From: Spirochaetia bacterium
GTDB taxonomy: Bacteria; Spirochaetota; Spirochaetia; Sphaerochaetales; Sphaerochaetaceae
Reading direction: 5' to 3'
Assembly (NCBI GenBank): GCA_022482625.1
Contig: JAKVOU010000001.1
Coordinates: 1,970,784 to 2,034,783 of the forward strand
Length of the DNA stretch: 64,000 nt
A program made the position numbers and the translations under genes. How positions within the stretch are numbered: the first letter of the stretch is position 1; each line of letters begins with the position of its first letter. Below are positions 37,756-42,066 of this stretch, in pieces. The notes below the pieces were generated by a model. That model saw only the letters and a program-made list of their open reading frames with translations. It did not search any database and had not been told where the DNA came from.

Positions 37756-38790
37756 ATGAAGCAGATTACAATAAAGGACATTGCGAAGCAGGCCGGTGTA
37801 AGTATATCGACGGTTTCACGGTGTCTGAATGATAGCCCGATGGCGAACAGCAAGACAAAGGAACGTGTATTGCAGATTGCTGATGAACAGGGTTTTGAAT
37901 TCAATGCAGGAGCCCGTTCCCTGGTAAAATGTGAAACAAAGACAATCGGCATAGTCTTGCCAAAAAACTTCAGCGACATTTCTGTCAACGTCTATCACAG
38001 CCAGTTGCTCAACGACATACAGACAAATATCCAAGAAAAAGGTTTCGATCTGCTCCTTACCTATGAGTTCAATGATATCACGGGCAAAAATAATATTATC
38101 AGACTTGTGTCGACCAACAAAGTTGACGGTCTGATCATGGTAGTCGAAACTTTGGATAAAAAAACCAAAAAATTCCTCGAATCTGCCGATATTCCCATAG
38201 TCTATTGTCATTATCCACCGAATCCGGAAGAGGATACGAAGAGAGATATGATTTACACTGACCACTTCCACGGAGGGTATCTGGCAGCAACAGCACTTAT
38301 CAGAAACGGTTGTACGAGCCTTACTTTTATCGGAGATATCGACGATCATATCGAATTCAATTTGCGATATGAAGGTTTCATGGCAGCAGCAAACAAATAT
38401 CATTGCAAGGTACTTGCCTTGGAATGCAAAAGGACACAGGAAGATGCAAAGCAACTGGTTCTTCATGAATATAAACGAATCATGGAAACACAAGCTGTTT
38501 TTGCCATCAGTGACCTTCTGGCAATAGGAGCCATGACCGCCTTGCAACAAAAAGGAATCAATATACCGCAGGATATCAGTATCCTTGGTTATGATGACAG
38601 TGAATTCTGCAGGATGTTTACGCCTATGTTGTCCACCATACACCAACCAAAGGAAGATTTGGCCTTCATGACCTGTGAACGTCTGTTCTTTCTGATAAGA
38701 AAAAACAAAAAAGGAGAGTCTTCCCGGCCGAAACATATAAGCATCCAACCTATTTTGGTCGAAAGGCAATCAACAGCAAAAAGAAATTGA
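37756..38790 (+). CDS. LacI family transcriptional regulator
   Basis: 344 residues. The helix-turn-helix (ITIKDIAKQAGVSISTVSRCLN) starts at residue 4 and is followed by a ligand-binding domain (TIGIVLPKNF, AISDLLAIGAMTAL, DISILGYDDSEF). The frame is open upstream to 37678, but those residues precede the family N-terminus; the ATG at 37756 has no ribosome binding site and lies six bases after a -10. Target genes are uncertain: it stands between the inositol ABC operon and an amino acid ABC operon. Confidence 0.88.
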   Translation: MKQITIKDIAKQAGVSISTVSRCLNDSPMANSKTKERVLQIADEQGFEFNAGARSLVKCETKTIGIVLPKNFSDISVNVYHSQLLNDIQTNIQEKGFDLLLTYEFNDITGKNNIIRLVSTNKVDGLIMVVETLDKKTKKFLESADIPIVYCHYPPNPEEDTKRDMIYTDHFHGGYLAATALIRNGCTSLTFIGDIDDHIEFNLRYEGFMAAANKYHCKVLALECKRTQEDAKQLVLHEYKRIMETQAVFAISDLLAIGAMTALQQKGINIPQDISILGYDDSEFCRMFTPMLSTIHQPKEDLAFMTCERLFFLIRKNKKGESSRPKHISIQPILVERQSTAKRN

Positions 38791-39043
38791 CAATTACTCC
38801 TTTTATTGCATCGGCCGAAGGGTAATTATGGAAAATTTATAGTAACCGATTTTGATATTATTAAAAAAAACATGCAATATGGAGAGCATCTGACCAGTTT
38901 TTTTACAACTCAATTGAATTATATTTGTCATAAAGTACGTATAATCAGTAGTTATAGACGAAAATTTGCAATATCAAAAATTTTGTTATAACTTCCTGTT
39001 TCTGCTCCTTGAAAAAACTCTCCAAAACAAATCTAATGGTAAG

Positions 39044-39096
39044 TGGATAAGACAACGGTGTCTGCTAACAGGCAAATACCGTTGTTTTTTTATCCA
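39044..39096 (+). promoter_or_regulatory. Attenuator-like hairpin in the leader of the amino acid ABC operon
   Basis: CAACGGT (39053-39059) pairs with ACCGTTG (39078-39084), with an inner GTCTG/CAGGC stem, followed by seven T residues: a good intrinsic terminator, yet it lies between the leader and the ribosome binding site of 39110. The arms extend as TGGATAA (39044-39050) and TTATCCA (39090-39096). CCTGTT at 38995-39000 could pair with AACAGG in the hairpin as an antiterminator. The rest of 38791-39043 has no gene and no known riboswitch I can recognise. Confidence 0.55.
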
Positions 39097-39109
39097 AGGA
39101 GCATCAGCA

Positions 39110-39853
39110 ATGGGAAACATTATCAGTTTTGAACACTTGAATATGCGTTATGGAGACTTGGAAGTACTCAAGGATATTACGCTCTCTTTGGCAGAGGGCT
39201 CAAAAACTGTCATTATCGGACCTTCAGGATCTGGGAAAAGTACAATGCTCCGTTGCATGAATCTCTTTGAAAGGCCACAGAAGGGAAAGGTAATCGTCGA
39301 TGGTGTCGATCTGATGAACCTGAAATCAAAACAATTATGCCAAGTAAGACAATCAATGGGAATGGTATTTCAATCCTTCAACCTTTACCCACACCTGACT
39401 GTATTGGATAACTTGACCCTTGCATGCAGGATTTTGAAAAAAGAAAAAAAGGAACAGGCAGAAAAACGGGCCATGCAACATCTTGAAGCCGTTGGATTGG
39501 CTGAGAAAAGGGACAGTTATCCTTCCCAGCTTTCAGGAGGACAACAGCAAAGGGTCGCCATTGCAAGAGCACTGACTATGGAACCTAAAGTACTGTTATT
39601 CGACGAACCGACCAGTGCGTTGGATCCTGAAATGATCAGTGAAGTGCTGGATATCATGCAGAAGGTTGCACAACAGAACATCACAATGGTTGTGGTAACC
39701 CATGAAATGGGTTTTGCCTCAAATATTGCAGATAGGGTCCTTTTCTTGGATCAGGGTGTCATATCTGAAGATGGAACCCCTGAAGAAGTTTTTAATCATC
39801 CAAAGCATGAAAGGACAAAACAGTTCCTGTCAAAGATTCTTAAAAGCGCGTAG
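39110..39853 (+). CDS. Polar amino acid ABC transporter ATP-binding protein, GlnQ type
   Basis: 247 residues. Walker [10 protein letters not shown] near 35-43, ABC signature [15 protein letters not shown], Walker [15 protein letters not shown] and the switch His in [10 protein letters not shown]. The family imports glutamine, glutamate, aspartate, arginine, histidine or cystine. The frame is open from 38966, but the ATG at 39110 has AAGGAG at a proper distance and matches the family start. It is the first gene of a four-gene operon. Confidence 0.92.
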
Positions 39854-39905: not shown

Positions 39906-40697
39906 ATGAAAAAAATCATTGCAATCGGAGCGATGGCTCTGCTGTCAGCAGTAGCACTTTTTGCAAACGGAACAACCGAAACAGCACCAAAAACCGAAGT
40001 TGACAAAATCAAGGCCAGGGGCGTCTTTACTGTCGGGTGTAAGGAAGATGTACCTAATTTCGGATATAAGAATATCCAGACCGGCAAGGTAGAAGGATTT
40101 GAAATAGACTTGGCAAACAAGATCGGTGAAAAGATTCTTGGGCCAAATCCAAAGATTGATTTTGTCGGAGTTACAGCAAAAACGAGAGGGCCTTTGCTTG
40201 ATACAGGTGAACTCGATGCAGTCGTAGCAACTTTCACGGTGACCGATGAAAGAAGGAAAAGCTGGGATTTCTCTGATATCTATTATGTCGATTCCGTTGC
40301 AGTCATGGTAAAGAAAAGCAATGGATTTAAATCCTTCAAGGATCTTGATGGAAAAACAATAGGTGTTGCCCAATCCTCAACGACCAAGAAAAGCTTGGAA
40401 GCAGAAGCACAGAAAGAAGGCATTACACTCAAGTATAGCGAATTTGCCACATATCCTGAAATCAAAGTTGCCCTTGACTCTGGAAGAATTGATGCCTTCA
40501 GCGTTGATCTTTCGATCCTTGCAGGTTATATGGAAGATTCCTGTATGTTGCTTCCAGAACGTTTTGCACCCCAGCAGTATGGTGCAGCTGTCAAGAAGGG
40601 TAATGCAGCATTGCTGAAAGTAATCAATGATACAATCGAGGAACTCAAAGCAAGCGGAGAATTGGACAAGATGCAGGAAAACTGGCATCTCAAATAA
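39906..40697 (+). CDS. Amino acid ABC transporter substrate-binding protein
   Basis: 263 residues with a signal peptide ending ALFANG near residue 19 and a Thr-rich linker. Family 3 binding-protein features include the start of the domain GVFTVGCKEDVPNFGYKN, FEIDLANKIGEK and VVATFTVTDERRKSWDFSD. Resembles PEB1/GltI-type proteins that bind acidic or other polar amino acids. The upstream frame extends back into the ATPase gene, but GGAGAGG and the signal sequence fix the start at 39906. Confidence 0.9.
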   Translation: MKKIIAIGAMALLSAVALFANGTTETAPKTEVDKIKARGVFTVGCKEDVPNFGYKNIQTGKVEGFEIDLANKIGEKILGPNPKIDFVGVTAKTRGPLLDTGELDAVVATFTVTDERRKSWDFSDIYYVDSVAVMVKKSNGFKSFKDLDGKTIGVAQSSTTKKSLEAEAQKEGITLKYSEFATYPEIKVALDSGRIDAFSVDLSILAGYMEDSCMLLPERFAPQQYGAAVKKGNAALLKVINDTIEELKASGELDKMQENWHLK

Positions 40698-40729: not shown

Positions 40730-41398
40730 ATGTTCAGACTTTGGATGTGGCAAGAACTCTTTGCCCACTTCGATATATTTTTGTCAGGCTTTGCCAAGAC
40801 CATCTTGATTTCTGTCTTGGCATTGCTATTGACCTTTGCCATCGGGATTCTGGTAGGACTACTGAGAGTAAGCGGCAAGAAAGCTGTCAAAACTATCTGC
40901 CAAGGCTATATCAGTTTCTTCCAGAATACCCCGTTGGTCGTACAGGTATTCTTTTTTTACAATGTACTACCTAGGTTGGGCATCATGCTCTCACCTTTTA
41001 TTCTTGGATGCATTTCCCTAGGACTGTACACAGGTGCTTTTGCTGCTTCTATCGTTGAAGCAGCAATCCAAGCTGTTCCCATAGGACAGATGGAAGCGGC
41101 GGCCTCGCAGGGGTTTCCTTTTCTCACTGCAATGCGATTGATAATCCTTCCGCAGGCTCTCAAGATTGCCATGCCTCCGATGGCAAACCAGTCTGTAAAC
41201 TTGATCAAGAATTCTTCAGTTTTGGCGCTTATAGCCGGTGGAGAACTTATGTACAGATCTGACAGTTTTGCAGCTGATGCATCAATTTATGGCCCTACTT
41301 TCATTGTAGTCGGTGTTCTTTATCTGATTATCTGCCTACCTTTATCCACTTATGCACGGAACATGGAAGAGCGGCTCAAAAAGGGAGCAGCAAAATGA
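40730..41398 (+). CDS. Amino acid ABC transporter permease (first)
   Basis: 222 residues with five or so membrane helices. The HisM/GlnP family EAA loop reads GQMEAAASQGFPFLTAMRLIILPQA near 120-145. The four-base overlap with the next permease (ATGA) indicates coupled translation and a heterodimeric channel. Confidence 0.9.
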   Translation: MFRLWMWQELFAHFDIFLSGFAKTILISVLALLLTFAIGILVGLLRVSGKKAVKTICQGYISFFQNTPLVVQVFFFYNVLPRLGIMLSPFILGCISLGLYTGAFAASIVEAAIQAVPIGQMEAAASQGFPFLTAMRLIILPQALKIAMPPMANQSVNLIKNSSVLALIAGGELMYRSDSFAADASIYGPTFIVVGVLYLIICLPLSTYARNMEERLKKGAAK

Positions 41399-42066
41399 AT
41401 CTTTTCTCACCCTATACACTGCCTGAAGTTCTTATATTCCTGCTGAAAGGTCTGCGGATGACTCTTTTCATAGCAGGCATATCCATAGGTTTGTCTTTCG
41501 TTTTCGGTGCCATACTCGGAATCGGCAGGCAAATGGGAAAAGGCATCTTCCATAAGATTTGTGCCTTGTATATTGAATGTGTAAGAAACATGCCGCTTCT
41601 TCTTTATATTCTTGCATTCAGATTTACGATGCCGACTTATATCGGTAACTATAAGATTCAGAATAAACCGGTTGCCTCGGCAATCCTTGCCATGACAGTC
41701 TTCACTTCTGCCATGGTTGCAGAAATTATCAGGGGTGGATTGAATTCAATCCCAAAGGGCCAATGGGAAGCTGCTGCATCACAGGGATTCACAAGAAGTC
41801 AGACCTTGATTCATATAATACTACCTCAGGCTGTGCGGAACATCCTCGTCCCCATGGTCGGTCAATTCGTGACCTGTATCAAGGATACATCGTTCTGTGC
41901 TGTTGTCGGTATCGGAGAATTGATGATGAACACGACAATCATCATGGGAAAATTCAAGTTCGCAGACCAAGTCATAGTACTTTATGCTATTACAGCTTTT
42001 ATCTACTATCTGATCAATATACTTCTCATGCATGTTTCACAAAGACTATTCAAGAAACCTTGTTGA
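41395..42066 (+). CDS. Amino acid ABC transporter permease (second)
   Basis: 223 residues, paralogous to the previous protein, with EAA loop KGQWEAAASQGFTRSQTLIHIILPQA, described in part, near 120-145. Completes a GlnQ/GltI/GlnP-type importer. Ends ahead of a strong terminator. Confidence 0.9.
   Translation: MNLFSPYTLPEVLIFLLKGLRMTLFIAGISIGLSFVFGAILGIGRQMGKGIFHKICALYIECVRNMPLLLYILAFRFTMPTYIGNYKIQNKPVASAILAMTVFTSAMVAEIIRGGLNSIPKGQWEAAASQGFTRSQTLIHIILPQAVRNILVPMVGQFVTCIKDTSFCAVVGIGELMMNTTIIMGKFKFADQVIVLYAITAFIYYLINILLMHVSQRLFKKPC

Follow-up and report, generated by a model that had tools for sequence, protein, structure and literature searches.

The 64,000-nucleotide stretch of spirochaete DNA analysed here (the window) carries an operon for an ABC-type amino-acid importer, consisting of an ATPase, a substrate-binding protein and two permeases (Table 1), and upstream of it on the same strand a LacI-family gene that ends at 38790. 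Relatives of the ATPase were found at 80 loci, mostly from other phyla. We take the structure closest to the substrate-binding protein, 2v25, to be PEB1a, a binder of aspartate and glutamate, in agreement with the protein's NCBIfam name PRK11917 (below cut-off); the substrate is likely to be an acidic amino acid or glutamine, which would make the transporter one of the glutamate/aspartate/glutamine type. Two tRNA genes lie on the + strand of the window at 2319–2403 and 2430–2516.

Table 1. Predicted elements of the importer leader and genes of the operon, in window positions.
Feature	Position	Strand	Basis
Candidate −35, TTGAAA	39009–39014	+	Top promoter score in the 140 nt 5' of the hexaloop; consensus match only
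Candidate −10, TCTAAT	39032–39037	+	Spacer of 17 nt; 13 nt from its end to the hexaloop core; consensus match
Intrinsic terminator hairpin	39044–39096	+	Predicted fold; incompatible with the hexaloop fold
ANTAR-type hexaloop (P2), AGAC[AACGGT]GTCT, A1 and G4	39050–39063	+	Scan; kept in 5/5 close orthologs
T7 run of the terminator	39085–39091	+	Sequence
Shine–Dalgarno AAGGAG	39096–39101	+	Sequence; terminator directly 5' of it
ABC importer ATPase (GlnQ/ArtP type)	39110–39853	+	Pfam ABC_tran above cut-off; NCBIfam amino-acid importer ATPases below curated cut-offs
Substrate-binding protein	39906–40697	+	Closest solved structure 2v25 'major cell-binding factor', E 1.3e-68
Importer permease 1	40730–41398	+	
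Importer permease 2	41395–42066	+	

The original prediction had placed a terminator-like hairpin with a T7 run ahead of the importer, and the folding analysis bears this out: In the predicted structure, 39051–39061 pair with 39076–39086 in an upper stem and 39044–39050 with 39090–39096 in a lower stem, the free energy amounts to −26.8 kcal/mol (z = −6.9), and none of 200 shuffled sequences is equally stable. The view that every transcript of the operon must pass this terminator is likewise supported, while the AAGGAG had been misplaced to 39110, where the ATG of the ATPase gene stands. The lower stem (TGGATAA/TTATCCA) spans the U tract, starts at the predicted transcription start and can form in readthrough RNA only. 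Rfam models yielded nothing above the gathering threshold in the leader, in line with the earlier statement that no known riboswitch was recognisable. A comparison of the leader DNA with 41 genomes returned its own copy as the only good match, and no further strong copy was found in its own genome; the notion of a repeated element was abandoned, as GGATAAGACAACGG with up to two mismatches gave 32 matches there and a control 47. A leader peptide was also rejected, as the proximal start would leave no space for it 5' of the terminator, and so was a 295-aa frame crossing the leader, which begins 5' of the best-scoring promoter.

RNA made from this promoter, TTGAAA-N17-TCTAAT, would start at about 39043–39046. 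The weak point of its −10 element is the C at position 2, where an A is usual; TCTAAT is also the best −10 hexamer of L253, one of the gltB leaders described below. More distal candidates in the window, TTTGCA-N16-TATAAC with a −10 that ends at 38992 and a TATAAT at 38940–38945, would add about 50–100 nt of leader with a degenerate AATGGT loop, and in the ortholog L109 the best promoter is distal as well (56 nt).

According to Ramesh 2012 (PMC3369931), an ANTAR target consists of two hexaloop hairpins, of which the second overlaps an intrinsic terminator, mostly before nitrogen genes. In the window, a hexaloop that starts with A and has G as its fourth base (A1 and G4) sits on a 4-bp stem (at least three pairs being required) and overlaps the terminator's 5' arm; the loop bases pair with the 3' arm of the terminator and covary with that arm across sites, so that the two folds are mutually exclusive. 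Further attributes of such a target are an ANTAR gene in the same genome, detected as a single PF03861 match, and a nitrogen-metabolism gene downstream, here the amino-acid importer and at other sites gltB, glnA and asnB. A first hexaloop (P1) is lacking: No A1/G4 hexaloop with at least three pairs occurs between 38838 and 39050, the next one upstream of 39050 being at 38824. Across the whole window, four A1/G4 hexaloops overlap a terminator, compared with zero to six for nine other loop identities, and the site alone would therefore not stand out without comparison; it is the conservation across orthologous leaders, not the anatomy, that gives the element its weight.

Orthologs were sought with the binding protein in 139 genomes of the family, which yielded five close ones (L105–L109, 63–71% identity) and two at about 50% (L110, L111). 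Their leaders, to which the original prediction had looked for a test of the hairpin, gave a split answer: In all five close orthologs, promoter and gene are separated by a terminator-like hairpin that opens with the common GACAANGNNGTC, and all five show the same overlap of hexaloop and terminator, whereas neither distant ortholog does; the hairpin of these two is a different one and lacks a T run. The search revealed no close importer ortholog in the three further species of the window's genus that were compared, where the best matches to the binding protein have 24–32% identity. When the eight leaders (window plus seven orthologs) were scanned for hexaloops that share sequence with the terminator's 5' arm, with the loop positions free beyond the identity tested, A1/G4 overlapped in six and each of the 15 other position-1/4 identities in none. 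The conserved alternative fold to the terminator is the A1/G4 hexaloop, the recognition element of ANTAR antiterminator proteins.

The single ANTAR match of the genome (PF03861, G000:C1:1850491–1850649, E 8.5e-15 in the profile search) belongs to a gene (L183 8087–8668) that encodes a protein of REC plus ANTAR architecture. On its 5' side and on the same strand are genes that match GATase_2, Glu_synthase, Fer4, Pyr_redox_2, GXGXG and Gln-synt, it comes after glnA, and it is followed by a gene that matches CTP_synth: The ANTAR gene sits in a glutamate synthase / glutamine synthetase / ANTAR / CTP synthase cluster. Its product aligns with Rv1626, EutV (6wsh, E 8e-10), NasR and AmiR. Among the EutV residues named in Walshe 2022 (PMC8934654), K143, K147, M172 and R175 are kept in the alignment, while E, D and N stand in the places of R168, N173 and R177, respectively. 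An Asn takes the place of the phosphorylated Asp54 of EutV. At this phospho-acceptor position, 25 non-duplicate ANTAR proteins have Asn in 21 cases, Asp in three and Lys in one (hand count); the full alignment of 30 rows with duplicates (L163–L191) has 25 Asn, four Asp and one Lys.

The hexaloop terminator recurs in the window's own genome. Its gltB leader, which heads the operon that contains the ANTAR gene, has two hexaloops, aagac[AATGGT]gtctt and gtagac[AAGGAC]gtctgc, 40 nt apart and the second on a terminator, and single-hexaloop terminators precede genes that, on reading of the sequence, are asnB (C1:1837591, minus strand), a BMP-type ABC permease (C1:2422734, plus) and a BMP-family binding protein (C1:2447825, minus). 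The searches behind these sites are noisy: GACAANGNNGTC plus a T run gives four matches in this genome and six for the control, that is, not above control, although two of the four (the gltB leader and the window) precede genes and form terminators; one of the others, L195 (the same place as L245), falls within an open frame. A wider pattern gives 21 raw matches and 19 for its control; of these, we retained only sites that form a terminator and are followed by a gene, and regarded the others as chance matches, leaving out L227. In the 139 genomes, the pattern search found a site in 16 and a control match in eight (hand count), with L154 and L157, which look like chance matches, excluded from the counts. 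In other genomes of the family, the genes that the element precedes read like gltB and asnB, two kinds of glutamine synthetase, CTP synthase and a symporter of the sodium-solute type, names which were given by reading or by likeness to Pfam-tested genes where one exists. The element also lies 5' of a gene (L304) whose product reads like a circularly permuted ATP-grasp-like protein.

The scan of loop identities was also run on the gltB leaders of the family: 77 of 87 passed with A1/G4 and zero to four with nine other identities, counts that are not independent because the leaders are related. Four failures (L286, L290, L293, L295) possess the motif and failed on the T run or the stem; six leaders (L225, L261, L262, L265, L274, L288) lack the core motif. 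The genomes of L262, L265 and L274 encode the ANTAR proteins L170, L171 and L174, which have Thr and Cys at the places of EutV R168 and R175, where the family has Glu and Arg. The element also co-occurs with its presumed reader: RACAADGRCGTY plus a T run occurs in 74 of the 87 genomes with ANTAR and in 16 of the 52 in which no ANTAR was detected (Fisher p 1.1e-10, a guide only because the species are related), compared with 31 of 87 and 25 of 52 for the reversed pattern (p 0.16; hand tallies throughout); the remaining 13 ANTAR-positive genomes have no site with this pattern. Finally, 107 sites (74 distinct 18-mers) show covariation in both folds. In the hexaloop stem, the third pair is G–C in 35, A–T in 34 and G–T in five cases, with no mismatch. 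In the terminator, which was detected at 106 of the 107 sites, the pairs at loop position 3 are A–T (60), G–C (33), C–G (3) and G–T (2), and those at position 5 G–C (57), A–T (42) and G–T (5). The invariance of loop positions 1, 2 and 4 is not evidence, because the collecting motif fixed them; the scans of the gltB leaders and of the eight importer leaders left these positions free beyond the identity tested.

The gltB leaders also bear on the number of hexaloops. In 74 of the 81 that have the core motif, the −10 of the best promoter ends 7–19 nt before the hexaloop core, compared with about 13 of 81 for mononucleotide shuffles. Owing to this spacing, which the window shares with its 13 nt, most such RNAs should begin at the hexaloop itself and there would be no room for an upstream P1. 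A second A1/G4 hexaloop (at least four pairs, within 90 nt upstream) is missing from 65 of the 77 passing leaders; in the other 12, four look like true P1 hairpins (L196, L197, L198 and L208, all of the window's genus), one is a mis-call (L221) and seven are unrelated loops. The linkers of the four dual-hexaloop leaders measure 25–40 nt, compared with 5–12 nt in eut leaders. The importer leader hence seems to represent ANTAR attenuation with one recognition hairpin where known examples need two, a claim which for the window rests on its relatives.

Throughout the class, ANTAR is found in 32 of 248 genomes from four families including the window's. Around 13 ANTAR genes outside this family, the A1/G4 scan, which here required a downstream frame of at least 90 codons, gave 21 matches, compared with two to seven when any of the 15 other identities was used. 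Some of the A1/G4 matches look like chance; others are single hexaloops behind promoter-like sequences, and the genes that follow read as ammonium transporter, glutamate synthase, carbamoyl-phosphate synthase, CTP synthase and glutamine synthetase. In another spirochaete family, a tandem pair of single-hexaloop terminators lies 5' of an ammonium-transporter-like gene (L343 12850–12970, L344, L345). Judged by the genes behind the element, the regulon would be one of glutamine/ammonium assimilation, comprising glutamate synthase, glutamine synthetase, asparagine synthase, CTP synthase, and the uptake of amino acids and other compounds.

Taken together, the hairpin very probably serves as a transcription attenuator with which the importer mRNA begins, under the control of the one ANTAR protein that the cell has. 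In the default state, the polymerase would reach the conserved terminator structure about 45 nt after the start and presumably stop there. The active ANTAR protein, for which nitrogen limitation is the putative signal, would bind the 14 nt at the base of the terminator and hold them as a short A1/G4 hexaloop hairpin, in which state the terminator could not form and the importer genes would be transcribed. We infer this readthrough step, and with it the direction of control, because the hexaloop is conserved, the two folds exclude each other and the genome has an ANTAR gene. With moderate confidence, we extend this reading to a glutamine/ammonium regulon of Spirochaetia run by 5'-terminal single-hexaloop ANTAR attenuators: The sole binding hairpin would be made right after promoter escape and a recruitment hairpin would for this reason be unneeded, and the receiver-like domain, mostly devoid of a phospho-acceptor, may sense nitrogen via a protein partner or a ligand and not via a kinase.

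The alternative closest to this reading is a classic dual-hexaloop target, in which transcription starts at about 39000 or 38952 and the degenerate TCT[AATGGT]AAG near 39032–39043 serves as P1. Distal promoters are possible, AATGGT is also the P1 loop of the own genome's gltB leader, and L109 likewise has AATGGT upstream of P2; however, the AATGGT of the window overlaps the predicted −10, no A1/G4 hexaloop with at least three pairs lies between those at 38824 and 39050, and most relatives have no space for a P1, which makes this variant unlikely. A longer leader is also presupposed by the antiterminator of the original prediction, CCTGTT (38995–39000) with AACAGG (39067–39072) in a leader drawn at 38946–39040. 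The two motifs are indeed complementary, the 170-nt leader is more stable than its shuffles (z −6.3), and the upstream TGCTCCTTG (39003–39011) is the perfect complement of CAAGGAGCA (39095–39103) around the Shine–Dalgarno sequence, a pairing which by fold prediction could mask the ribosome site only if the transcript starts farther upstream. Nevertheless, such pairings are not seen in orthologous leaders and involve sequence upstream of the start predicted for the best promoter, so that the CCTGTT/AACAGG antiterminator probably lies outside the transcript, and we consider a long leader of this kind extremely improbable.

That the attenuator is run by a small molecule or a protein had been left undecided in the original prediction; the attenuator itself stands, probably under the control of a protein. 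A riboswitch or T-box that senses an amino acid or tRNA directly would suit a terminator that precedes an amino-acid importer, but Rfam contains no match above threshold, conservation is limited to hexaloop and terminator, and the proximal promoter leaves an aptamer no space; we therefore give it very little credence. Equally implausible is a plain unregulated terminator, for example that of the LacI-family gene, which does lie upstream on the same strand: The position of the hairpin relative to the importer is kept in all five close orthologs and the loop identity is specific, whereas the LacI gene precedes the importer in the window's own genome only, within the limited flanks compared.

Among characterised ANTAR proteins, AmiR of Pseudomonas aeruginosa has a receiver-like domain that is not phosphorylated, and is held by AmiC. 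AmiR (PDB 1qo0) resembles the spirochaete protein in that the two align; it differs in its partner, as no AmiC-like gene was seen adjoining the spirochaete ANTAR gene. Among the main texts of open-licence PMC papers, only Walshe 2022 (PMC8934654) was found on single-hexaloop ANTAR motifs; on ANTAR antitermination in spirochaetes, four texts were found, each of which mentions ANTAR one to three times, and for Sphaerochaeta combined with ANTAR no title on the subject was among the matches listed. The main text of Ramesh 2012 (PMC3369931) contains neither 'Spirochaet' nor 'Treponema', and its Tables S1/S2 may list spirochaete matches. In the same main text, glutamate synthase and further nitrogen genes in the Desulfotomaculum regulons are preceded by ANTAR sites, as in our set, but these sites are described as dual-hairpin motifs, unlike the single hexaloop of the importer leader.

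A further close counterpart is the EutV/EutW system of Enterococcus faecalis, whose eut leaders share with the importer leader the A1/G4 hexaloop and the placement of the second hairpin on the 5' arm of the terminator, and which also combines nitrogen-related targets with an ANTAR protein in the genome (PMC3369931, PMC8934654). It differs in that EutV is phosphorylated at Asp54, where the spirochaete protein has Asn, and in that eut leaders need two hexaloops 5–12 nt apart, whereas the importer leader has one, at its predicted 5' end. According to Walshe 2022 (PMC8934654), a dimer of EutV touches a single hexaloop at any one time; antitermination nevertheless needs both and is abolished by 20 extra linker nucleotides, and further work is called for on the role and extent of use of single-hexaloop motifs. 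Natural single-hexaloop attenuators throughout a family, within about 20 nt of the promoter, would make this question directly testable. They would also provide a group of spirochaetes with a mechanism of nitrogen control and, in dispensing with the upstream hexaloop P1 of known ANTAR targets, offer a simpler regulatory part composed of a promoter, one hairpin and a terminator.
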